Virus record (IMG/VR): IMGVR_UViG_3300025652_000142
Span: 1 to 43,842 of that record
Origin: a virus
Reading direction: 5' to 3' (one strand)
Length of the DNA: 43,842 bases
The position numbers were made by a program, and so were the translations under genes. Below are positions 20,694 to 29,769 of this stretch, piece by piece (within the stretch, counting starts at the first letter, position 1; each line of letters begins with the position of its first letter). The notes under the pieces were generated by a model. It was given only the letters and a program-made list of their open reading frames with translations, was not told the origin of the DNA and searched no databases.

Positions 20694-22594
20694 GGTGCAT
20701 CATTCATATTAGTTAATTTAAAATCTCCATAACTTGGTTCGTAATCTGTTCCAACGTCAGCTAGACGTTCTTTTTGCATACGTCTAAATACTTTCATCGG
20801 AAACCAACTAGCCATAACTATATCAGTTTTTTCCTTGTTTCGCTTTGAAACAGGTTTACCATCAAAGTATAACAACTGTTGTCTGTATTTTTGTATTTTA
20901 GCACTACTTTCTGAATCACCTGTAGGTAAATGTATTTTTCTATTTTCAAACAAATCTGCCATTGCACCTACACCATATAGTGGGTCATGTTTGTTTTTAC
21001 CTGTTAGATGTCCTTGTAGCTGAATACCACTACGTAATGTAAATTCTTTTATCTTATCATCTTGACGTATAGCAGTTTGAAAACCGTTTTCTTCTACTAT
21101 CCATTGACGACAATCATATTTGTGTAACCAATCTGACATTTGGTCAAGTGCAGCCCTTACTCCGCCCCCTTGCCTATTTTCTAAATCTACTAAAAACAAT
21201 TCGCCTCTATATGCATCTATACCCCAAAGTACTGATGCTTGGAATCCTGATGATGCAGGGTCAAGTCCAGCTACTAAATGTAAATTTCTATAATGTTGTC
21301 CCATAACTAAATCTGGTCGCATACATTGGTCAACCATGTTCATAGTAAAGATTTGTGTACCTTCTATGTATGTTTGGTTATAATACACCATCTCAAATAT
21401 CTGCCTACCACCAGTAGATTCAGCAGAACGTAACCTAGACATTAACCATTTGTGTGAACGTTTAGTAGGCCATAACATACAATCTGTATGTACTTCATCA
21501 GTATGTTCTGGTAGTTCACATTCTAGTTTGTGTGCAGATTCAACTATTGATGTAAAGTTATCTGATTCTAAAAGATGGTTATATAAATCATCAGGGTGTT
21601 GTCTTGAACCTATAACAACAACAGCTGTGTGTTCTTCTTTACGTGAAGATAATGTTGTTGTCCACCATTGTCTTGTAGATTCTCTTGCACCAGCTTGCAT
21701 AGTCGTTTGGTGGTCTTCAATGTCATCTGCAATTATTAAGTCACAGTCACGTGATAATATTTTTCCACCTTTACCTACAGCAACCATAGTAGGCGATTTA
21801 ATACCAGCTACAGTTCTTGTACCTACAGTAAATTGATTTTGTGACCAGTTCTTACCAGAACGGTTATCTGGTTTAAAAGATGTACCTGGGGGACAGTATG
21901 CCTCTCTAAGTTCTTCGTTCGTGTCAAGCACGTCTAGGACTGCGCTAAGGGCATTTTTAGCTATATCTTCGTTTCCACCTACCCACATGATACGTAGGTT
22001 TGGATTCTTGCATATCTGGTACACAGCAAAATGTATTAACAGTTCTGTCTTTCCATGTCTTGGGGGGCTTAATATTAATAATTCTTTACCGTTATTAATA
22101 GAATCTATAATGTTATTTATCCAATTAGTATGGAAGGGGGCTGTTTCATACTTCTTACCTAGTTCCGTACGAAAATATTTTTCGCGGAAGCTAGAAAAAT
22201 TCTTTAAACTCTTTTGTGCATCTTCTGATATTTCCCATCCGTCAGCAGCGATGGAGTTCCTGGTGTCAATTTTGTAGGCAGCTGCCATTCGAGAGACGGT
22301 AGCCGAGCTAGTCTCAAGGAGTAAAGATACCTCAGCTACACTAATGTCTCCATTAGCTAGTAACTCGGCGTATCCTTCACTTACGAAAGCTCGGTAATAC
22401 GTACCTCGTCTAACACTAGCGTAGTCGCCATCATCAGATTTTAGTTCACGGTTAATTGGTTTTTCAACCTTGTCATTATGTCGCTTGTCGGCTGCGAACT
22501 GTCTCTTTTGACAGGTAGGTGAACAAAATTTTCTTTGTTTCCCACTTAATCGCTTCCTACAGCCTTGAGCTATACATACAACATTTTGACCCAT
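20684..22594 (-). CDS. terL: Large terminase with extra N-terminal zinc finger and HTH
   Basis: 636 aa. The ATPase has Walker A S-P-P-R-H-G-K-T (176-183) and Walker B L-I-I-A-D-D-I-E-D (286-294). The RNase H-like nuclease has G-L-D-P-A-S (443-448), V-E-E-N-G (500-504) and a late acidic residue in K-T-D-I-V-M-A. Ahead of this are a C7/C12/C24/C28 zinc-binding knot and a helix-turn-helix (about 82-108, S-V-A-E-V-S-L-L-L-E-T-S-S-A-T-V-S-R) that looks like the DNA-binding part of a small terminase. No separate small terminase gene was found, so the two functions may be fused. First gene of the late arc. Confidence 0.9.
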   Translation of the reverse strand: MGQNVVCIAQGCRKRLSGKQRKFCSPTCQKRQFAADKRHNDKVEKPINRELKSDDGDYASVRRGTYYRAFVSEGYAELLANGDISVAEVSLLLETSSATVSRMAAAYKIDTRNSIAADGWEISEDAQKSLKNFSSFREKYFRTELGKKYETAPFHTNWINNIIDSINNGKELLILSPPRHGKTELLIHFAVYQICKNPNLRIMWVGGNEDIAKNALSAVLDVLDTNEELREAYCPPGTSFKPDNRSGKNWSQNQFTVGTRTVAGIKSPTMVAVGKGGKILSRDCDLIIADDIEDHQTTMQAGARESTRQWWTTTLSSRKEEHTAVVVIGSRQHPDDLYNHLLESDNFTSIVESAHKLECELPEHTDEVHTDCMLWPTKRSHKWLMSRLRSAESTGGRQIFEMVYYNQTYIEGTQIFTMNMVDQCMRPDLVMGQHYRNLHLVAGLDPASSGFQASVLWGIDAYRGELFLVDLENRQGGGVRAALDQMSDWLHKYDCRQWIVEENGFQTAIRQDDKIKEFTLRSGIQLQGHLTGKNKHDPLYGVGAMADLFENRKIHLPTGDSESSAKIQKYRQQLLYFDGKPVSKRNKEKTDIVMASWFPMKVFRRMQKERLADVGTDYEPSYGDFKLTNMNDAPWG

Positions 22595-22629
22595 TTAACT
22601 AACTTTCTGTAGATGTTTGCGTAGTGCTA

Positions 22630-22658
22630 ATTATATGGTACTATACTCTCAAATACAA
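22630..22658 (-). promoter_or_regulatory. Putative late promoter ahead of the terminase gene
   Basis: Minus-strand TTGTAT (22653-22658), 17 bp, TATAAT (22630-22635). The predicted start leaves a ~30-nt leader to the ATG at 22594. The same TTGTAT -35 with TATAAT/TATACT occurs at two other gene starts here. Confidence 0.5.
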
Positions 22659-22780
22659 ACATCAAACACAAGTAATTTGTTACAGGTGAAGGTGCAATCG
22701 GGATGTAGAAAGCTGCTGACTGGCAAGACAGTACACTAGAAAGACAAAGGCAGTACCCAAGGACATTAGAAAGCGTTTGA

Positions 22781-22816
22781 TTAGGCACACAATTACTAAT
22801 GCCCGCTAGTGCCTAA
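22781..22816 (+). other. Perfect 8-bp hairpin in the control region
   Basis: TTAGGCAC (22781-22788) pairs with GTGCCTAA (22809-22816) around a 20-nt loop. It is followed at 22821-22838 by a second perfect hairpin, ACTGTAG-ccac-CTACAGT (7 bp, 4-nt loop). The weak A-rich run after the first does not make a convincing terminator. Confidence 0.6.
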
Positions 22817-22906
22817 AAAGACTGTAGCCACCTACAGTATTACAGAAGTTACCAGCATATATTTCTAGCCTTACATACTATATATAGAACATCAAGGTTA
22901 ACACTG

Positions 22907-23004
22907 GTAGGTCAAACAACACTCAGTAATAAACAGTATTGACAGAATGTCAATTCTTTTATGTACTGTACTGAGTGTCTTTACCTTACGGTAAAGTGAC
23001 CTAC
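22907..23004. other. Branched (cruciform-like) palindromic element
   Basis: Four nested or side-by-side perfect stems: GTAGGTCA/TGACCTAC (22907-22914 with 22997-23004), ACACTCAGTA/TACTGAGTGT (22919-22928 with 22969-22978), ATTGACA-gaa-TGTCAAT (22938-22954) and TTTACC-ttac-GGTAAA (22980-22995). Together they fold 98 nt into a closed multi-branched shape on either strand. It could be a small RNA, an attenuator or an extruded DNA structure at an origin. Confidence 0.65.
22926..22967. promoter_or_regulatory. Back-to-back promoter pair in a palindrome
   Basis: The palindrome ATTGACAgaaTGTCAAT carries one perfect TTGACA per strand. Plus: TTGACA (22939-22944), 17 bp, TGTACT (22962-22967). Minus: TTGACA (22948-22953), 16 bp, TATTAC (22926-22931). 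The -10 boxes are only 4/6, so activity is uncertain and may need an activator. Confidence 0.4.
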
Positions 23005-23125
23005 TATATATAGTATCCCTTATTGATTTAATACCATATGTAGTGTATTGATATGACTATGCATACATATGGATACTATATATAACTACAGTGTTATCCG
23101 TCCAATGTATTACATTCCAACTGTT

Positions 23126-23183
23126 CATTAAGTTACTTGCCTCTACTGTATTGTGCTAACAGTACAGTGAGGATAACTTAATG
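23126..23183. repeat. 10-bp inverted repeat with inner 6-bp repeat
   Basis: CATTAAGTTA (23126-23135) is complementary to TAACTTAATG (23174-23183); inside, ACTGTA pairs with TACAGT. GTTATCC near 23093 can alternatively pair with GGATAAC (23171-23177), giving two competing folds. CCATATG/CATATGG (23034-23040, 23066-23072) lies just upstream. Confidence 0.5.
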
Positions 23184-23233
23184 TTACAGACCTTTGTCGC
23201 CGAGGCTTGCGAGTGCGTCTTGGTCTGTCATAC

Positions 23234-23261
23234 TTGTATGTCAATGCCAATCTAGTATTAC
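23234..23261 (+). promoter_or_regulatory. Putative early promoter
   Basis: TTGTAT (23234-23239), 16 bp, TATTAC (23256-23261). The -35 matches those of the other promoters proposed here; the -10 is weak. Transcription from it would put the 23292-23358 hairpin in the leader of the first early gene. Confidence 0.3.
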
Positions 23262-23291
23262 CCATAGATATTCTCGTATCCTATTTTCTAA

Positions 23292-23358
23292 GTCCTTTCG
23301 TATTTAAGGATTTTCCGTCTTGGCAGGTATGTAAGACAGAAAATTCATACGAAAGGAC
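23292..23358 (+). promoter_or_regulatory. Long leader hairpin sequestering the first early ribosome site
   Basis: GTCCTTTCGTAT (23292-23303) pairs perfectly over 12 bp with ATACGAAAGGAC (23347-23358). After a 4-nt bulge the stem goes on: GGATTTTC/GAAAATTC with one G-T pair, one C-A mismatch, then GTCTT/AAGAC, closing an 11-nt loop. About 25 bp in all. The 3' arm contains the GAAAGGA ribosome site for the ATG at 23367, so folding should block translation. Confidence 0.7.
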
Positions 23359-23366
23359 AAGAAAAT

Positions 23367-23672
23367 ATGGATACTGAATATACTAAGTGGGTAAATACTA
23401 TCGATTGTGGCATATGTCATACTGAAGTATTTCCAGACGAAAGACACCCTATAAAAAGCTACTTCGGACCACAGAAGGGCTGGGTAACATGGAAGTCGTA
23501 CCTACACGGCGACTGTGTTGCACAACCGACAGTTGGAGGCAAGCCGAACTTAATTGAAAAGCATAAGGAATCTAAAACCTATATTGCACGTAAATTAAAA
23601 GAGTTGCCTAAATTACAAAAACAAGTTGATAATATCAAGCAATTATCATTATTTGAAGGTAGTGAGGCTTAG
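23367..23672 (+). CDS. Small Cys/His protein, first gene of the early operon
   Basis: 101 aa, not recognised. C19-x2-C22 and H47-x2-C50 could bind one zinc, with W39/W42 between them; the C-terminal 35 residues are a basic-then-acidic helix (L-K-E-L-P-K-L-Q-K-Q-V). Being the first early gene behind a control hairpin, it may be a host-takeover or DNA-binding protein, but nothing in the sequence proves this. Its stop codon lies inside a hairpin (23655-23687). Confidence 0.65.
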   Translation: MDTEYTKWVNTIDCGICHTEVFPDERHPIKSYFGPQKGWVTWKSYLHGDCVAQPTVGGKPNLIEKHKESKTYIARKLKELPKLQKQVDNIKQLSLFEGSEA

Positions 23673-23687
23673 GCCTTACTATCCTTC
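23655..23687 (+). other. Stop-codon hairpin
   Basis: GAAGG pairs with CCTTC and, after one bulged base, TAGTGAGGC pairs with GCCTTACTA around a 4-nt TTAG loop that holds the stop codon. Fourteen pairs (one G-T). No T-tract follows, so a role in mRNA stability or processing is likelier than termination. Confidence 0.55.
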
Positions 23688-23695
23688 TTGTATAA

Positions 23696-23765
23696 CTATG
23701 TCTTTAGCTAAATATTTTCTTTCAGAGCGTGGTGTGAAAGAAAAATTTATCTATGAAAGACATAG
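23696..23765 (+). promoter_or_regulatory. Intergenic two-part hairpin ahead of the 119-aa gene
   Basis: CTATGTCTTT (23696-23705) with AAAGACATAG (23756-23765), 10 bp; inside it TTTTCTTTC (23715-23723) with GAAAGAAAA (23736-23744), 9 bp, both perfect. It ends 12 bases before the GAAAGGA ribosome site of the next gene, so here the site itself is free. Confidence 0.6.
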
Positions 23766-23793
23766 ATGATACATAATAGAAAGGATATATATT

Positions 23794-24153
23794 ATGGCAA
23801 GTAACGTACCTTACGAGGTAATCTGTGCGCAAACAGGCGCACAACTCACGGAGTGGAGTCAAATGGCTGTCACTCATGGCTATTCAGCAACTCAAGGTAA
23901 AAGTAGACCTTACTTTTTACATCTTGATAAAACTGATACAGAAGTTGCAGAGCAACTACGTATCATTGCTGACGCACAATCAAAACTGTGGGAATTGCAT
24001 GACGCAAGTCCTACATCTCTTAAAGGTAAAGAGAATGCAGAAAAACAATTAGCTATGGCTAATGTTTCTGCATCATATGATAATAGTGAAATACTTGATG
24101 AACTAGACGCTATCGAAAACGATGGCGATTATGACGGTAACGTTGTAGAATAG
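23794..24153 (+). CDS. Unknown early protein with acidic tail (119 aa)
   Basis: Starts after GAAAGGA. The N-terminal 45 residues look beta-rich (P-Y-E-V-I-C-A-Q-T-G; Y-F-L-H-L), the middle is helical, and the last 25 residues are strongly acidic (D-E-L-D-A-I-E-N-D-G-D-Y-D). Acidic tails are found in single-strand DNA-binding and DNA-mimic proteins, but the body matches no family I know. Well conserved reading frame and ribosome site support it as real. Confidence 0.6.
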   Translation: MASNVPYEVICAQTGAQLTEWSQMAVTHGYSATQGKSRPYFLHLDKTDTEVAEQLRIIADAQSKLWELHDASPTSLKGKENAEKQLAMANVSASYDNSEILDELDAIENDGDYDGNVVE

Positions 24154-24162
24154 TTTAATACT

Positions 24163-24200
24163 TATATATTACGTTCTTCTATGGGAGAACGTAATATATA
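24163..24200 (+). promoter_or_regulatory. Perfect 15-bp hairpin between early genes
   Basis: TATATATTACGTTCT (24163-24177) pairs with AGAACGTAATATATA (24186-24200) around an 8-nt loop. It sits between the stop at 24153 and the GAAAGGA ribosome site of the gene at 24218. Fifteen perfect pairs make it a good RNase III substrate or stability element. Confidence 0.7.
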
Positions 24201-24217
24201 TAAAGTGAAAGGAAACT

Positions 24218-24415
24218 ATGAATATTACATTAGATAATAAACTCAATACGCTTAATGTAGATGAGTTAAGACAAGTTATTCAGTGGACACTTAATGACTT
24301 ACAAACTTGGAGTAACAATGACCGTGTCAAAAATGACATAGGCAATCATTGTGCAATGCTTCATGAGGCAGTAAGTTATCAAATAAGCAAAGCTGTTGAT
24401 AAGAAAAATAATTAA
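24218..24415 (+). CDS. Small unknown early protein (65 aa)
   Basis: Preceded by GAAAGGA. Predominantly helical (V-D-E-L-R-Q-V-I-Q-W-T-L-N-D-L), no Cys pattern, no membrane segment. Its stop overlaps the next ATG (TAATG). Confidence 0.55.
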   Translation: MNITLDNKLNTLNVDELRQVIQWTLNDLQTWSNNDRVKNDIGNHCAMLHEAVSYQISKAVDKKNN

Positions 24416-24534
24416 TGGGTGGTTGGTTACTATGCGAAGGTTGTGGACGTTATGCACATACACATAATGGTGGTGGCGAAATTAATAACAAACACTATTG
24501 CGAACCATGCTATCCAGAATATATAGAAAGGTAA
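24415..24534 (+). CDS. 39-aa zinc-ribbon miniprotein
   Basis: ATG overlaps the preceding stop. Contains C7-x2-C10 and C29-x2-C32 with His15/17/27 between: a complete two-knuckle zinc ribbon and little else. Coupled to genes on both sides, so likely translated. Nucleic-acid or protein binding is inferred from the fold only. Confidence 0.6.
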   Translation: MGGWLLCEGCGRYAHTHNGGGEINNKHYCEPCYPEYIER

Positions 24535-24536
24535 TA

Positions 24537-24707
24537 ATGACAAGTAAATTAGATGATATAGAAATAAAATTAAATGATATAGTTTTAATACTTGAAGGTA
24601 TTAAAAACACCATGCAAAACATGGGTGAGCTTGATAAAGCTATTGTAGGCAAGCTTATGGATTTAGATTCAGTTATCAGTAACGTATACGATACAGATAC
24701 ATTATGA
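24537..24707 (+). CDS. 56-aa helical early protein
   Basis: The chosen start is the ATG at 24537, six bases after an AGAAAGG ribosome site; an upstream in-frame ATG would overlap the zinc-ribbon gene and lacks a site. The product is one amphipathic coiled-coil (L-D-D-I-E-I-K-L-N-D-I-V-L-I-L-E-G-I), probably an oligomeriser. Overlaps the next gene by 4 bp (ATGA). Confidence 0.55.
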   Translation: MTSKLDDIEIKLNDIVLILEGIKNTMQNMGELDKAIVGKLMDLDSVISNVYDTDTL

Positions 24708-24937
24708 AAGAACATGATGTATATGTATTTGAAAATCAAGATTATAGACAAAAAGATAATATCTTAACTGTTGATTTTCATTTCGGATATGATACTGACG
24801 TAGATGACGCTGTTGCACAAATAGACGCAATGGTTCGTCTTATAGACAATGACGGTGACATAGAGTTTACCGTACATAGACCAAGCATATATTGTAAGTC
24901 TATGTTAGATGTAATTGGACCAGATGATTATGCCTGA
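24704..24937 (+). CDS. Small acidic early protein (77 aa)
   Basis: Starts at an ATGA overlap. Very acidic with two beta-like stretches (I-L-T-V-D-F-H-F-G-Y and D-I-E-F-T-V-H-R-P) around a helix (D-D-A-V-A-Q-I-D-A-M-V-R-L-I), a possible beta-alpha-beta fold. No family recognised. Acidic small early proteins sometimes mimic DNA to block host enzymes; speculative. Confidence 0.55.
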   Translation: MKEHDVYVFENQDYRQKDNILTVDFHFGYDTDVDDAVAQIDAMVRLIDNDGDIEFTVHRPSIYCKSMLDVIGPDDYA

Positions 24938-25082
24938 TTCATTTACATGTTGGTTATGTAACAAAGTCATACACAATGAATATACCAATAATGCAGAACC
25001 TGTATCTATTGGTGTTTGTTGTGCAAAATGCAATATTAAAGTTGTCATTCCTGCCCGAATGCGACAACTTTATAAAACCTAG
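24930..25082 (+). CDS. 50-aa zinc-finger miniprotein
   Basis: ATG lies within the end of the preceding gene (8-bp overlap). C7-x2-C10 and C30/C31-x2-C34 form a zinc ribbon; the C-terminus is basic (P-A-R-M-R-Q-L-Y-K-T). The stop codon falls inside the first stem of the structured region downstream. Confidence 0.55.
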   Translation: MPDSFTCWLCNKVIHNEYTNNAEPVSIGVCCAKCNIKVVIPARMRQLYKT

Positions 25083-25135
25083 ACCATGTGTCCAAGCTGG
25101 CTGTTTAGTTCCCCTTTACAGCCAGCGTCTAGGTT
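25076..25135 (+). ncRNA. Two-stem hairpin (9 + 9 bp), start of a folded gap
   Basis: AACCTAGAC (25076-25084) with GTCTAGGTT (25127-25135), and GCTGGCTGT (25096-25104) with ACAGCCAGC (25118-25126). Both are perfect and stack directly on the 3' side, leaving an 11-nt bulge on the 5' side and a 13-nt C/U-rich apical loop. Not a tRNA: the arms and T-loop are missing. Confidence 0.55.
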
Positions 25136-25146
25136 GTTACACGTAC

Positions 25147-25246
25147 GTAGCTTGTAGCACATAAAAGGTGAGCTAAGTAAAAAACACCACCCTGTATTGG
25201 GAGTTAGCACACATTGGACAACACCTTCGTGTGTGTTACAAGCTAT
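25147..25246 (+). ncRNA. 100-nt rod-like structured RNA candidate
   Basis: Bases 25147-25163 pair with 25230-25246 over about 17 positions (three G-U pairs; core TAGCTTGTA/TACAAGCTA). Inside, AAGGTG/CACCTT (25165-25170, 25222-25227), GCTAA/TTAGC (25172-25176, 25204-25208) and CCC/GGG continue the rod. There is no open frame with a ribosome site. GATAGC near 25275 could compete for the 3' arm, giving a switch. Confidence 0.5.
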
Positions 25247-25302
25247 CTATAAAATACATAATGCCCTGTGTAAGATAGCATTGAGTATGGAAGGAGTGTT
25301 AT

Positions 25303-25815
25303 ATGCATTCCTTCCGTTACTCTTTGTCGCAGAGCAACGAAAGGAATATTATGCATGGACATTTAATTGAGATTAAAAATAAACCATTAAAAAAGTATCA
25401 AGTACAAATATCATATTTCAGACAACAAGTGTTTGATAAAATAGATGATAATAAAAAACTAGATATAGAAAATGGTATAGCTAATCGATATGAAGTAGAG
25501 GCTAGTTCATTAGAACAAGCTATTGCTAGAGCTATTAAAATTGACACTGTTGTTAAAGCAGAAACAATGGCACGTTATCCAGGTATTTTACCTGATGAAG
25601 ACGAATTTGATAAAGATACAGTACTTAAATTTGCTGAATTTCTTGATGATAAGGGTTTGTTTCAGGACTGGATATTGTTAGAGCCAACAGCTATACAAGC
25701 TAGTTTAATCGATGACGAAGATGAACTTAATACGCTTACAGAAAATGCTGTTATGGAACATAGCAGTAACATGAGTGACGAAATAGAAGATTTTCTTAGA
25801 GATACTAAGGAATAA
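25303..25815 (+). CDS. Unknown acidic early protein with two possible starts (170 or 154 aa)
   Basis: Two in-frame ATGs each have a ribosome site: 25303 behind GGAAGGAG and 25351 behind CGAAAGGA. The first 16 residues add only a Ser/Arg-rich tag, so the 154-aa form may be the main product. GGAAGGA (at ~25290) can pair with TCCTTCC just inside the frame, hiding the first site. The protein has a K-x-K-x-Y-x-V-x-I-S-Y beta start, a helix (L-E-Q-A-I-A-R-A-I) and a long acidic C-terminus ending E-I-E-D-F-L-R-D-T-K-E. It directly precedes the AAA+ gene and may belong to that system. Not recognised. Confidence 0.55.
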   Translation: MHSFRYSLSQSNERNIMHGHLIEIKNKPLKKYQVQISYFRQQVFDKIDDNKKLDIENGIANRYEVEASSLEQAIARAIKIDTVVKAETMARYPGILPDEDEFDKDTVLKFAEFLDDKGLFQDWILLEPTAIQASLIDDEDELNTLTENAVMEHSSNMSDEIEDFLRDTKE

Positions 25816-25839
25816 ATACAGATACGAAAGGAGCTAATC

Positions 25840-26565
25840 ATGGCAAACGATTGCTGGGAATTAGTAGAATCTGTATTGGGCAATAGCCGTAGAGTATTAC
25901 TTTATGGCCCACCTGGTACAGGTAAGACATACAGTGCTGTTAAAACTAATACGCCTAAAGCGTATAGTAAATCAGCAGGAAAAGAAATAGATAATATCTA
26001 TCAAATAACTATGACAGAAGATACTGCTAGTGCAAACTTAGAAGGTTTTTACAAACCATCTAGCACAGGTACTTTTGAATGGCATGACGGTATTGCAATA
26101 CAATCATGGAAAAATGGTGGTCGCCTTGTAATTAATGAGATAGACCATGCGTCACCAGACGCAATGACGTTTCTACATGCTATTTTAGACGACCAAGAAA
26201 TAGCAATGTTGACATTAAATAACGATACAAAAGAAACAGTTAGACCAGCTGATGGCTTTCAAGTTATAGCTACAACTAACAGTCCACCAGAGTCATTACC
26301 TTTGGCTTTGAAAGACAGATTTCCTGTAAAAATATATGTTGACAGTATACACCCTAAAGCAATGGAACAGTTTCCAGATGAGTGGCACGGTGTAATTAAT
26401 GATACAACATTAGTAGAAGATGATGAAGAACGTATTTCAGTACGTGCATGGACAGAGTTCTTTAACTTACAAGCTAATGGCTTTAGTCCAGAACAAGCAG
26501 CTAAATTAGTCTTTGCAGACAAAGCAGAAGAATTAATAGATGCTGTTACGTTAGCACGTGCTTAA
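25840..26565 (+). CDS. MoxR/CobS-like AAA+ ATPase
   Basis: 241 aa with GAAAGGAG ribosome site. Walker A G-P-P-G-T-G-K-T (23-30), Walker B R-L-V-I-N-E-I-D (95-102), sensor 1 A-T-T-N-S-P (144-149) and a conserved arginine in L-K-D-R-F (160, arginine-finger region). This is the dynein-related/AAA_5 type that forms hexameric rings and works with a VWA partner, as in MoxR-VWA and CobS-CobT. Its stop overlaps the start of exactly such a VWA gene. Role inferred: ATP-driven remodelling of a target selected by the partner. In phages similar genes are often called cobS, but no cobalamin genes are present here. Confidence 0.85.
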   Translation: MANDCWELVESVLGNSRRVLLYGPPGTGKTYSAVKTNTPKAYSKSAGKEIDNIYQITMTEDTASANLEGFYKPSSTGTFEWHDGIAIQSWKNGGRLVINEIDHASPDAMTFLHAILDDQEIAMLTLNNDTKETVRPADGFQVIATTNSPPESLPLALKDRFPVKIYVDSIHPKAMEQFPDEWHGVINDTTLVEDDEERISVRAWTEFFNLQANGFSPEQAAKLVFADKAEELIDAVTLARA

Positions 26566-27985
26566 TAGTAAAGCTTATCCATATCCAGAAATTGTTACTG
26601 GTGAGAAGTGGGAAGTAGTAGGTACTATTAACAACAGTCCCGATGGTTCTACAGATAATCTCAACAGACAAATGACAGTACCTCTCGATAGAGAGTGTAC
26701 AGAATGTGGTATCAATCATAGTCGTATGATACGTAGACACGAACTTGGTCATGCCAAGTGGAGTCCAAAGACTATGGGTAAGCTAAAACCAGGTGTACGT
26801 GCAGAGGCTGTTCATGTACTAGAAGAAGTTAGAGTTAATCATCTTCTATATGAAAACAAGCTTGCATTATCTGAACCATCAAAGTGTTTAGATGTAATAC
26901 AACAAGAAACTATGAAATTAGTTTACGAATCAGGTATTGCAGAGATAATACTTATGGGTTTAGCTAGTAAATGGAAAGTACCAGATATTGATACTAACCG
27001 TAGATATGCTAGTTATAAATACAATGATGAGTGGGTTGTAATGTCAGCTTGTTTCAACATGATAAGAAATGATGATACAGTTACTGATTATCGTAAACAA
27101 CAGATTATATATGCAGAAAGAATTATTGCTAGATTTTTTCAAAGTATTACTAATCATGGTTATGGTCAAACTATTAGTTATCGTAAAGTACAAAAGTATG
27201 CAGAACCATTGAGTGCAATACTTGACATGTTCAGAGATGCACCTACACAAGATGAAGTATACAAACCTAAACCAAAATCACATACCGCACCTGGTATTGA
27301 TGAGAGTGAAGGGAATGCTGAAGAATCTAATGAGTTAGGTGGTGGTTCTTTAGAACAACGTACAAGAGACGACCTAGCAGAGTTATTGTATAGAAGTACT
27401 CAAGGTACAGGTAGATGGGGTGAAATGTTTACGCATCAACCACCATTATCTGTTAATTTACAAAGTAGACTTAAAAACGGTAGGTCGTATAGACCAGCTG
27501 ACTTTGGTTACAATCCAAAATACATTAACAGATACTGTATAGATAAGAAAATATTCAAACAAAAAATGACTGCACTTGGTGGCACAATACTTATTGATGC
27601 ATCAGGTTCTATGTCATTTAATGGTGAAGATATTTTAGAAGTTATGCAGCAATTACCTGCTGTTACTATTGCTATGTACAATGGTACAGGTGACACAGGT
27701 GATTTACGTATCATTGCTAAAAATGGTAAACGTGTAACTGAAAAGTATTTAGATAACCATTCAGGTTACGGTAATGTTGTAGATGGTCCTGCTTTAGAAT
27801 GGCTAGGAACACAACCAGCTAGAAGAATATGGGTATCAGACATGCATGTGTTTGGTGCGCATGGTGATACTGCTGGTTTTAATCTAATGGCTGATGTAAA
27901 TAAAATCGTTAGAAAATACAATATTATTAACCTTAAGAACATAGAAGAAGTAAAGGAACATGCATTAAAACTGAATGTAGTATAG
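26558..27985 (+). CDS. VWA protein with N-terminal HExxH metallopeptidase-like domain
   Basis: 475 aa from a GTG start overlapping the AAA+ gene by 8 bp (translational coupling; ATG at residue 39 is the alternative start). C47/C50 and then H61-E-L-G-H65 with Glu89/Glu90 following at the spacing of a zincin third ligand. The middle is helical, then an acidic linker (~245-270). The C-terminal VWA domain has a full MIDAS: D347-A-S-G-S351, with D409 and D428. Resembles CobT-like and DUF2201-type proteins in which a metallopeptidase-like domain is joined to VWA. Predicted partner of the AAA+ ring, possibly a regulated protease or chaperone. Confidence 0.8.
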   Translation: MLNSKAYPYPEIVTGEKWEVVGTINNSPDGSTDNLNRQMTVPLDRECTECGINHSRMIRRHELGHAKWSPKTMGKLKPGVRAEAVHVLEEVRVNHLLYENKLALSEPSKCLDVIQQETMKLVYESGIAEIILMGLASKWKVPDIDTNRRYASYKYNDEWVVMSACFNMIRNDDTVTDYRKQQIIYAERIIARFFQSITNHGYGQTISYRKVQKYAEPLSAILDMFRDAPTQDEVYKPKPKSHTAPGIDESEGNAEESNELGGGSLEQRTRDDLAELLYRSTQGTGRWGEMFTHQPPLSVNLQSRLKNGRSYRPADFGYNPKYINRYCIDKKIFKQKMTALGGTILIDASGSMSFNGEDILEVMQQLPAVTIAMYNGTGDTGDLRIIAKNGKRVTEKYLDNHSGYGNVVDGPALEWLGTQPARRIWVSDMHVFGAHGDTAGFNLMADVNKIVRKYNIINLKNIEEVKEHALKLNVV

Positions 27986-28263
27986 TTAAGGAGTAATGTA
28001 ACACGCAAGTGTGGCAGAGTTCCTTTCCTTTGCTTAAGCATTACACCGATAATTAGAGTGGAATAGAGTGCAAAGAGAACTTGCAACAAGGTATTTTATT
28101 CATCATGTCAACAGTGACCTATAGTGAACACCACTCTGATTATTTACGCCCGCGTGCTTCACCTCAACACTTCGCGTACACTAGGGTGTCCGACTCGTGT
28201 TTCCGTTTAGCTCGCTAAGCCTAAATAAATTAAATCCTTGTATTTAAAATAAATGAATATATA
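27986..28263 (+). other. 278-bp non-coding structured gap
   Basis: No supportable gene. It begins with GTAATG/CATTAC (27993-27998, 28039-28044) crossed by TTAAG/CTTAA (27986-27990, 28033-28037), i.e. a pseudoknot or two alternative pairings. Then comes the 13-bp stem 28049-28143, and a small hairpin GTTTAG-ctcg-CTAAGC near 28205. The gap ends with a promoter-like site just before the next gene. Confidence 0.5.
28049..28143 (+). ncRNA. 13-bp stem-loop in the gap after the VWA gene
   Basis: ATAATTAGAGTGG (28049-28061) pairs with CCACTCTGATTAT (28131-28143) with a single T-G pair. The 69-nt interior holds the small hairpin GCAA/TTGC. Possibly part of a small RNA located between the AAA+/VWA pair and the next transcription unit. 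Confidence 0.5.
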
Positions 28264-28265
28264 AT
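28238..28265 (+). promoter_or_regulatory. Putative promoter for a leaderless transcript
   Basis: TTGTAT (28238-28243), 16 bp, perfect TATAAT (28260-28265). The -10 box overlaps the first possible ATG (28264) and lies 7 bases before the second ATG (28273), so transcription would begin at or next to that second ATG with no leader. Confidence 0.5.
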
Positions 28266-28506
28266 GACAAGTATGAAAGATATAGATAAACTTCTGAAAG
28301 AAGCTGAACATGGTAAGACAAGTTCAGTAGCTGACAGAATAACAGATGAAGCAATGCCATTCTGGCAAGGATGTATAGAACGATTAACTTCTGGACATAA
28401 CATAAAACCATATGTTGTACACAGATTGTTAAGAGAAGAATATGGTATTAAAATATCAGAATCAGCTATACGTAATCACTTTATGAAAGTAGTAAACAAT
28501 GAGTAA
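28264..28506 (+). CDS. Small HTH-like protein (80 aa; start may be 28273)
   Basis: No ribosome site precedes either ATG; the promoter spacing favours the ATG at 28273 (77 aa, leaderless). The C-terminal half, V-H-R-L-L-R-E-E-Y-G-I-K-I-S-E-S-A-I-R-N, is a good helix-turn-helix, so a DNA-binding regulator is likely. The N-terminal K-D-I-D-K-L-L-K-E-A-E tag is nearly the same as in the next gene, suggesting duplication or a common docking helix. Overlaps that gene by 8 bp. Confidence 0.65.
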   Translation: MTSMKDIDKLLKEAEHGKTSSVADRITDEAMPFWQGCIERLTSGHNIKPYVVHRLLREEYGIKISESAIRNHFMKVVNNE

Positions 28507-29554
28507 AGACGTTGATAAACTAATAGCAGAAGCTGAATCACTGAAAATTCAGGAACTAAAATCTGATAATCTTAAGTTACTTAAGCAATTAGATAAAGCT
28601 AAAAATAAAAAAGCTGATTTAATTGAGGCTATGTATGATGCTGTGCGAATGAATGTATCTACATGGGCTAAACCTAATGTTCCTAAACCAACATTAAGTA
28701 AAGCTAATAAGAATGAAGAAATTGCAGTAGCTATATTATCAGATATACAGTTAGCTAAAATAACACCAGATTATGACACAGCAATAGCAGAGAAAAGAGT
28801 TGTTGCATATGCACATAAGATAGTAGAACTAGCTAATCTTCAAAGAAATGCACACCCTGTTAACAAATGCGCAGTATTAGTTGCAGGTGACATTGTAGAA
28901 GGAGAGCTTATATTCCCAGGACAATCACACTTGATAGACGCAAGTCTGTATAGTCAAGTTACAATTGATGGCCCTAGAATATTGACACAGTTTTTTGATG
29001 TACTGTTAGCTAACTTTAAAGAAGTAGAAGTTACATGGGTTATAGGTAATCACGGAAGCCTTGGTGGTCGTGCAAGAAAAGACTATCACCCAGACAGCAA
29101 CAGTGACCGTATGCTAGGAAAGATAATGTCAATGATATATGATAAAGATAAAAGAATTTCTTTTCATGTACCAGACAGTACAACAGAAGACCATTGGTTT
29201 GGTATAGCAGACCTTGGTAAAGACTGTAAATTCTTTGTATGGCATGGAGATAATGTACGAGGACATAGCGGTTTTCCTTGGTATGGTTTCGGTAAAAAAC
29301 TATTAGGTTGGAAAGCATTGGCATCAAGAAATCTTATGCCTGACTTTGACTATGCAATAGCTGGACACTTCCATACACCTACAACAATGTATGTTAATGA
29401 TGTACGTTTATGGGTTAATGGAAGCACAGAAAGCTACAATAGTTACGCTATGGAGCAGCTAGCAAGCATGGGTAGACCATGTCAATGGCTATTATTCTGT
29501 AAACCAGGACACGGAGTAACTGCTGAATACCTTGTAAAACTGGATAAAGTATAG
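28499..29554 (+). CDS. Calcineurin-like metallophosphoesterase
   Basis: 351 aa. Metal-binding motifs are in order: D82-I-Q84 (usual D-x-H has Gln), G-D131, G-N-H185, H249-G-D and G-H-F-H (289-292). Residues 1-45 are a coiled-coil tag with K-D-V-D-K-L-I-A-E-A-E. The fold is that of SbcD/Mre11-type nucleases and related phosphodiesterases, and phages often carry such a gene beside recombination genes. Substrate not evident: DNA end processing or nucleotide/cyclic-nucleotide cleavage are both possible. Confidence 0.85.
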   Translation: MSKDVDKLIAEAESLKIQELKSDNLKLLKQLDKAKNKKADLIEAMYDAVRMNVSTWAKPNVPKPTLSKANKNEEIAVAILSDIQLAKITPDYDTAIAEKRVVAYAHKIVELANLQRNAHPVNKCAVLVAGDIVEGELIFPGQSHLIDASLYSQVTIDGPRILTQFFDVLLANFKEVEVTWVIGNHGSLGGRARKDYHPDSNSDRMLGKIMSMIYDKDKRISFHVPDSTTEDHWFGIADLGKDCKFFVWHGDNVRGHSGFPWYGFGKKLLGWKALASRNLMPDFDYAIAGHFHTPTTMYVNDVRLWVNGSTESYNSYAMEQLASMGRPCQWLLFCKPGHGVTAEYLVKLDKV

Positions 29555-29561
29555 GTATACT
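29532..29561 (+). promoter_or_regulatory. Putative promoter inside the end of the phosphoesterase gene
   Basis: TTGTAA (29532-29537), 18 bp, TATACT (29556-29561), nine bases before the ATG at 29571, which has no ribosome site. The palindrome ATACTACATATAGTAT (29557-29572 region) overlaps it and resembles the ACTATATATAG repeats of the control region. Confidence 0.4.
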
Positions 29562-29570
29562 ACATATAGT

Positions 29571-29726
29571 ATGTCAAATACAATAAATGAGTCTGTTAAG
29601 AGAGTCTCTATTGAGTACGCAGGGTATGGTTCACAGCCATATTTTGTAGTTAATACTGATAATGGTATTAAATTTATTCCAATAGAACATGGAGTGACTA
29701 GACTTACAGACATAGTAAATAAATAA
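29571..29726 (+). CDS. 51-aa unknown protein, probably leaderless
   Basis: ATG nine bases after a -10-like TATACT and without a Shine-Dalgarno sequence. The product is beta-rich (V-S-I-E-Y-A-G-Y-G; Y-F-V-V-N-T-D-N-G-I-K-F-I-P-I), probably a small beta-hairpin or barrel protein. Not recognised. It is followed by a 17-bp hairpin. Confidence 0.55.
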   Translation: MSNTINESVKRVSIEYAGYGSQPYFVVNTDNGIKFIPIEHGVTRLTDIVNK

Positions 29727-29727
29727 C

Positions 29728-29769
29728 TTTATTTATTAGCCGTTTTTTCGGAACGGCATAATAAATAAA
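29728..29769 (+). promoter_or_regulatory. 17-bp hairpin ahead of the Rad52-like gene
   Basis: TTTATTTATTA (29728-29738) with TAATAAATAAA (29759-29769), and GCCGTT (29739-29744) with AACGGC (29752-29757); one bulged A, 7-nt loop. The GAAAGGA ribosome site begins a few bases after. No T-run follows, so not a classical terminator. Confidence 0.7.

Follow-up and report, generated by a model that had tools for sequence, protein, structure and literature searches.

Hairpins in the gaps of the early operon

The window analyzed here is the whole of a 43,842-nucleotide stretch of viral DNA (positions 1 to 43,842 of IMG/VR record IMGVR_UViG_3300025652_000142). The gaps of its early operon hold a series of structures, all on the + strand: a conserved RNA upstream of terL, hairpins and leaders around the genes at 23367-23672, 23794-24153, 24218-24415 and 25351-25815, a cassette with constant arms, a branched RNA downstream of the gene for a VWA protein, and a hairpin before an Erf-like single-strand annealing gene. 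A preliminary description had listed eight hairpins in this region and all eight are present. Each of them beats shuffled sequence in the comparison which that description had proposed (500 dinucleotide shuffles per hairpin), with MFE z-scores between -3.3 and -8.1: -7.6 at 23292-23358, -5.5 at both 23655-23687 and 23696-23765, -8.1 at 24163-24200, -7.0 at 25076-25135, -4.8 at 25147-25246, -3.3 at 28049-28143 and -6.1 at 29728-29769. Seven were equalled by no shuffle; that at 28049-28143 was equalled by 4 of 500. When 80-nt sliding windows are compared, z < -3 is reached by 25% in gaps and 8% in coding sequence (p = 0.01). Five of the six gaps of at least 50 nt hold an 80-nt segment at z between -5.0 and -6.5. 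The sixth (27986-28263) has a minimum of only -2.2, because the branched RNA that it contains exceeds this length, and the evidence for structure there is covariation rather than z.

Among the simple hairpins, that at 23655-23687 lies over the stop codon of gene 23367-23672 (2 doubly compensated pairs). Those just upstream of a Shine-Dalgarno (SD) site are the two-part hairpin at 23696-23765, before gene 23794-24153 (3 pairs), a 17-bp hairpin at 24163-24200, before gene 24218-24415 (3 pairs, 0 of 85 cells broken), and that at 29728-29769, before the Erf-like gene (2 pairs). Gene 25351-25815 has a long leader that begins with the hairpin at 25076-25135, where 0 of 80 cells are broken and 1 pair is doubly compensated. 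Missed in the preliminary description were a long hairpin at 23126-23183 (-31.8 kcal/mol for the fold of 23110-23200; sliding-window z of -6.3 at 23115) and the alternative pair at 25283-25347. The 1-3 doubly compensated pairs of each simple hairpin come from only 4-6 close relatives, and slid controls gave near zero. Compensatory change, another check that had been proposed, is present at each reported site comparable in relatives. Together with the strong excess of G-U pairs over A-C mismatches, which marks the RNA strand (484 to 20 in the cassette arms, 162 to 2 in the RNA upstream of terL and 86 to 3 in a further count), it upholds the view that structure has been selected. On this comparative evidence, the gap hairpins are genuine RNA structures that evolution has maintained. 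They do not form a single series built to one plan from unrelated stems, as had been proposed: we find at least four kinds of element, including exchanged cassettes and the branched RNA.

Leaders predicted to bury the Shine-Dalgarno site

The first hairpin had been described as ~25 bp at 23292-23358, which is too short: it extends over 23276-23374 with about 42 pairs and, around a core with z of -7.6, encloses both the SD (GAAAGGA) and the AUG of the first gene (23367-23672). Three doubly compensated pairs occur among 5 sequences (0 in slid controls), and in L011 the letters of the stem differ while the enclosure of the start is unchanged.

SD-sequestering leaders, which include translational attenuators and riboswitch-type expression platforms, use alternative hairpins. 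The leader of gene 25351-25815 is predicted to resemble them at 25283-25347, where two hairpins are mutually exclusive and one conceals the SD, although no ligand, leader peptide or known aptamer is identified with it. Its segments are A (25283-25298), B (25306-25322) and C (25332-25347, containing the SD), and the pairings A:B and B:C exclude each other. Compensatory changes are found in both pairings, and the same layout occurs with other sequences in L024, L025, L028, L034 and L036. In thermodynamic folding the SD is free with a probability of 0.53 here and 0.61 in L019; truncation to B reduces these values to 0.19 and 0.00. The site would be open when B pairs with A and closed when B pairs with C, so that the gene would be switched off by anything that occupies or removes segment A. 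The earlier suggestion of translation switches can be retained, on computational grounds, for these two leaders; the folding strongly suggests that genes 23367 and 25351 are controlled in translation by burying of the SD. Between the cassette and the switch, direct inspection of leaders also located a small hairpin (25255-25272) whose loop contains GCCC, and similar GCCC-loop hairpins are visible by eye in other leaders.

Two conserved structured RNAs

Just downstream of the VWA-protein gene lies a new branched RNA of ~160 nt (27986-28143), recognized by CM matches and covariation. It is present in dozens of related viral contigs; 66 sources gave 57 CM matches, the best with an E of 4e-27. A set of 56 distinct copies keeps the pairing at 98.5% of paired positions, and double changes occur in 23 of the 25 pairs; double-change cells number 414, against 114 when shuffled and at most 63 when slid. 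Rfam gave only chance matches over 27960-28280 (E about 1 or worse), and the collection of isolated phages gave none. Pattern-search matches in unrelated contigs were discarded as chance, since the rest of the RNA is absent there. It is probably a separate conserved RNA belonging to the upstream transcript.

The hairpin of this RNA at 28013-28034, with the anti-SD loop UUCCUUUC, combines an invariant loop with a covarying stem. The loop motif CCUUUC, found in 57 of 57 copies, is a copy of the ribosome's anti-Shine-Dalgarno. Its predicted duplexes with the GAAAGGA-led starts of the window have about -9 to -13 kcal/mol, a complementarity expected of any pyrimidine-rich 16S-like loop. The loop could pair with GAAAGGA ribosome sites of the phage's own or host mRNAs, or it may instead bind protein. 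In Gram-positive bacteria, an SD-complementary hairpin loop is also found in the C-rich-loop regulatory RNAs, which repress target mRNAs in trans (RNAIII and the Rsa family; PMC3861533), and the accessible loop and conserved hairpin predicted here agree with that class; the present RNA, however, is phage-encoded, has another structure, carries CCUUUC rather than UCCC in most copies and has putative targets.

Beyond it, comparison of gap sequences by eye delimits a variable 3' module (28145-28237), which to the eye resembles, in reverse orientation, a long hairpin of other clades. A promoter-like TTGTAT-16-TATAAT then overlaps the annotated ATG of gene 28264-28506 (28238-28265). Most relatives have TATAATG at this site and several have TTGACA upstream; their sequences suggest that translation starts, leaderless, at the following in-frame ATG.

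The conserved RNA upstream of terL (22595-22816) lies outside the region first described. Across its 31 distinct sequences, 98.9% of cells are paired, whereas slid controls reach no more than 42.7%, and double changes are seen in 16 of the 34 pairs. The consensus fold is better on the + strand, the strand on which the structure had been chosen. No Rfam family matched it, and a search of 22590-23370 gave weak matches of eukaryotic microRNA type only.

Cassettes with constant arms and exchanged interiors

The stem at 25147-25246 is part of an exchange cassette (25143-25250), in which constant arms (cores 25148-25161 and 25232-25245) surround a phage-specific structured interior. The stems had been called unrelated in sequence; this does not hold here: copies of the arms are found in well over 100 viral contig stretches. 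The 183 strict copies measure 35-229 nt as a whole (median 88 nt), with 14-nt core arms and a long constant stem of 19 bp that has fixed wobbles. Copies are intergenic in 179 of 182 cases and run with the genes in 149 cases against 11. From the G-U excess in the arms it follows that selection acts on the + strand RNA.

At 13 of 17 orthologous sites, matching flanks enclose different interiors; of the 88 interior families, 38 are found at more than one site, and interiors also recur on other arms. As this comparison of metagenome contigs, the source of all loci, shows, interiors have been exchanged between related phages within the constant stem. Covariation is seen within interior families, for instance in 6 of the 14 pairs of fam1 and in 4 of the 10 of fam0, and the interiors fold only a little better than shuffled sequence (mean z -0.73). 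The constant arms could be the sites of recombination for this exchange, and the phage's Erf-like annealing protein might take part.

Some interiors look tRNA-like; ARAGORN found no tRNA within the window, and there is none among the matches listed for the cassettes. Most of the interior matches outside cassettes that were inspected as antisense targets are further hairpins with other arms. A likeness of AACAAGG and GGAGAAC to the 3' region of 16S rRNA was set aside because the stems vary freely. A scan of genome contigs gave a single copy, in a Gammaproteobacteria MAG contig with this phage's gene layout, which is probably a mis-binned phage.

Rfam gave no match at the gathering threshold over the whole window, searches at permissive thresholds gave nothing credible, and a literature search found no published equivalents. 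In T4-type phages, promoter early stem loops (PeSLs) are summarized in PMC4503421 as intergenic mobile regulatory cassettes linked to genome shuffling (Arbiol 2010, Comeau 2014, cited there); they join an early promoter to a terminator stem-loop, and what they shuffle is genes. Our cassettes are likewise intergenic stem-loops tied to shuffling among phages but, set against that summary, have no evident promoter or U-tract, and it is the stem's own interior that is exchanged. The ESAS (extended start-associated sequences) of Cluster K mycobacteriophages are 17-bp inverted repeats with a spacer of 4-13 bp that precede some of the phage genes, mainly in one orientation, and are tied to a 13-bp SAS (PMC3203893). 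The cassettes share with them inverted repeats around a variable spacer and a prevailing orientation, whereas cassette interiors, of tens of bases to over 100, are structured, common to several phages and longer than ESAS spacers. The 13-bp SAS (GGGATAGGAGCCC) has 0 matches in the window with up to 2 mismatches.

What the gap elements may do

We consider it probable, from the conservation described, that the gaps are filled with several kinds of selected + strand RNA elements acting after transcription begins: SD-burying leaders, the separate ~160-nt RNA and cassettes with exchangeable interiors. Hairpins also occupy the early gaps of phage T7. There, RNase III processes the early mRNA at specific sites (Dunn and Studier 1973, as cited in PMC5371410), and the present hairpins might mainly be places where RNase III or another processing activity divides a long early transcript into units, with the cassette stem as recognition helix. 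The intergenic position, the co-orientation with genes and the long constant stem with its wobbles agree with such a role. Processing would nevertheless leave unexplained the exchange of structured interiors, the exclusive pairings at 25283-25347 and the branched RNA, and the gaps here, in contrast to T7 sites, hold several unlike classes of element; we regard it as possible but unlikely. Reassortment of interiors and flanks, and 23 interior pairs that match in reverse complement (in input incompletely filtered for orientation), would also fit cassettes that are DNA-level elements, either MITE-like mobile palindromes or recombination sites with passenger DNA inside. This we think improbable: the arm G-U excess is expected only under selected RNA pairing, the orientation is biased and interiors covary. 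Moreover, both flanks stay while interiors change, and therefore copies are replaced, not newly inserted.

That the hairpins separate transcription units as intrinsic terminators or attenuators is very unlikely, even though a promoter-like motif follows the 28145 module and one weak terminator-like site lies inside the leader switch. No U-tract was found after the reported stems, that of cassette 25143-25250 included, by terminator scan or in the sequence, and the 9 terminator-like sites in the window (4.8 +/- 2.1 in shuffles) are mostly elsewhere. The earlier remark that no T-run follows the stems is broadly right, with only two weak terminator-like sites, at 23658-23683 and 25287-25317. A promoter-like match near 25235 scores 9/12, in a scan that yields 54 sites against 47.8 in shuffles. 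Least probable of all is an assembly artefact at the 19-bp repeat; every locus is a metagenome contig, but whole cassettes are shorter than a typical read, and identical combinations of interior and flank recur across separate contigs.

If the gaps do hold selected RNA elements, our best guess is that the cassettes are fast-changing accessory RNAs directed at the host or at rival phages. A more tentative and somewhat doubtful picture is that a widespread tailed-phage lineage possesses a large set of small structured RNAs open to exchange, in which the arm would be a docking frame and the interiors functional payloads under diversifying pressure, e.g. for counter-defence or rival-exclusion, in the same genomes that carry the conserved anti-Shine-Dalgarno RNA.

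The ~160-nt RNA and the RNA upstream of terL are strongly supported new families of structured RNA, neither of which matches Rfam; the genomes that host these RNAs belong to uncultured phages, largely sampled from seawater. The leader of gene 25351 is, as modelled, a compact translation switch that can be tested. Hypervariability in phages is known mostly from protein genes. Swapping of RNA interiors at constant arms, if true, would amount to a cassette-like diversification of small RNAs and bring into view a new class of accessory functions in phages.

Phage and relatives

The terminase encoded by this 43.8-kb virus record is only ~27% identical to those of isolated phages, with best hits mainly to Streptomyces phages, and the isolated-phage collection contains no match to the VWA protein or to a 160-nt RNA encoded downstream of it. 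With the VWA protein as query, 50 related viral loci were recovered in which gene order is largely conserved, a number sufficient for comparative tests. A MoxR-type ATPase (CobS-like by PHROG) adjoins the VWA-type protein, which carries a HELGH motif, at 25840-27985.

Structure in the intergenic regions

The eight stems listed in the preliminary description are real; all fold far better than dinucleotide-shuffled sequence (z -3.3 to -8.1), and sliding windows show structure to be enriched in gaps relative to coding sequence. Both these z-scores and compensatory changes in relatives bear out its claim of selection for structure, but the single mechanisms it proposed are too simple. Intrinsic terminators were rejected as an account of the stems by a terminator scan.

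Translation switches, one of those proposals, are supported computationally for the leaders of genes 23367 and 25351, both of which look like translation control. For gene 23367, the Shine-Dalgarno site (SD) and the AUG are both enclosed by hairpin 23276-23374; the related locus L011 keeps this enclosure with a different stem sequence. In the leader of gene 25351 (25351-25815), segment B (25306-25322) can pair with either A (25283-25298) or C (25332-25347), which holds the SD; with A removed, the predicted probability that the SD is free drops from 0.53 to 0.19 in the window and from 0.61 to 0.00 in the L019 leader. Leaders of the same layout but largely different sequence occur in L024/L027, L025/L034, L028 and L036, and compensatory changes are seen in both pairings. 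The hairpins preceding genes 23794, 24218 and 29786 lie just upstream of the SDs without covering them. These three and the hairpin at 23655, which spans a stop codon, each show 1-3 doubly compensated pairs in the few relatives compared; slid controls give almost none. Small hairpins with GCCC loops recur in leaders of the phage and its relatives (25255-25272, 25047-25062, 22812 and other sites).

Conserved RNAs

The gap between the VWA gene and gene 28264 (27986-28263) holds a conserved RNA in its first ~160 nt (27986-28143, + strand). An alignment of 34 distinct relatives shows changes on both sides in 21 of 25 predicted pairs, and 57 copies from 66 sources match a covariance model, the best at E = 4e-27. 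When 56 distinct copies are compared, pairing holds in 98.5% of cells. Double changes occupy 414 cells; shuffling gives 114 +/- 12 and sliding the partners no more than 63. The RNA comprises an outer 5' stem bearing a four-base-loop hairpin, a hairpin with CCUUUC in its loop in every copy, and a second domain in which GAGAA or GAGAG, AACA(A/G)G and AUAGUGAACAC are strongly conserved. The hairpin loop's CCUUUC copies the 16S rRNA anti-Shine-Dalgarno tail and may pair with SD sites in trans; predicted pairing with phage GAAAGGA sites is about -9 to -13 kcal/mol. In the loci examined the MoxR/VWA gene pair lies directly upstream of the RNA. The 3' module of the gap (28145-28237) resembles, reversed, a long hairpin that other clades carry in this gap. 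In L024, L027, L035 and L037 a further ~200 nt conserved noncoding stretch, possibly a third RNA, follows the 160-nt RNA within the gap.

A promoter-like TTGTAT-16-TATAATG (28238-28275) overlaps the annotated ATG of gene 28264 (28264-28506); most relatives also have the TATAATG. Judged by sequence, the motif is a putative new promoter and gene 28264 is probably leaderless, starting at the next in-frame ATG, which would place the 160-nt RNA towards the 3' end of the upstream transcript.

A second conserved RNA (22595-22816) lies upstream of terL and of the region first described. It has double changes in 16 of 34 pairs, 98.9% of cells paired versus at most 42.7% when slid, and no matching family in Rfam. 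Conservation of the gap beyond it reaches about 23100 in many relatives.

Hairpins with constant arms

At least 119 stretches of viral contigs share the arms of hairpin 25143-25250 (+ strand), UAGGUAGCUUGUAGCACA and UGUGUUACAAGCUAUCUA. Nearly all, where judgeable, come from one broad phage lineage; relatives of window proteins occur in 90 of 111 additional loci. These cassettes lie between genes (179 of 182 copies), mostly oriented with them (149 same, 11 opposite). Their interiors form about 90 families and are exchanged: of 27 pairs of copies whose two flanks both match, 22 carry unrelated interiors, and of 153 pairs that resemble each other in the interior, 139 differ in both flanks. With copies collapsed to independent sites, two or more interior families are present at 13 of 17 orthologous sites, and 38 of 88 families occupy at least two sites. 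Some interiors are also found on different arms. As a set, interiors fold only modestly better than shuffled sequence (mean z -0.73); families with enough variation keep their helices through compensatory change. Some interiors (L139:3229, L008:6170, L020:8273) look tRNA-like, with a good T-arm and an irregular anticodon loop, and are possible decoys. One cassette occurs on L234 (PAEL01000115.1), a Gammaproteobacteria MAG contig with the window phage's layout that is probably phage DNA binned with that MAG.

Selection on a DNA palindrome would make G-T and A-C mismatches equally common. G-T exceeds A-C in the cassette arms (484 versus 20, structure not chosen on the + strand), the 160-nt RNA (86 versus 3) and the terL-upstream RNA (162 versus 2), the latter two with structures chosen on the + strand; all three ratios point to RNA of the + strand.

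The cassette is the most unusual result among the gap elements. For these elements the comparisons demonstrate structure, conservation and exchange; transcription, switching, SD pairing and any function of the cassettes are inferences. Among published systems, the PeSLs cited in PMC4503421 are mobile cassettes that combine promoter and terminator, and the inverted repeats termed ESAS have short spacers (PMC3203893); as far as the texts consulted go, neither description includes structured interiors being swapped inside constant arms.
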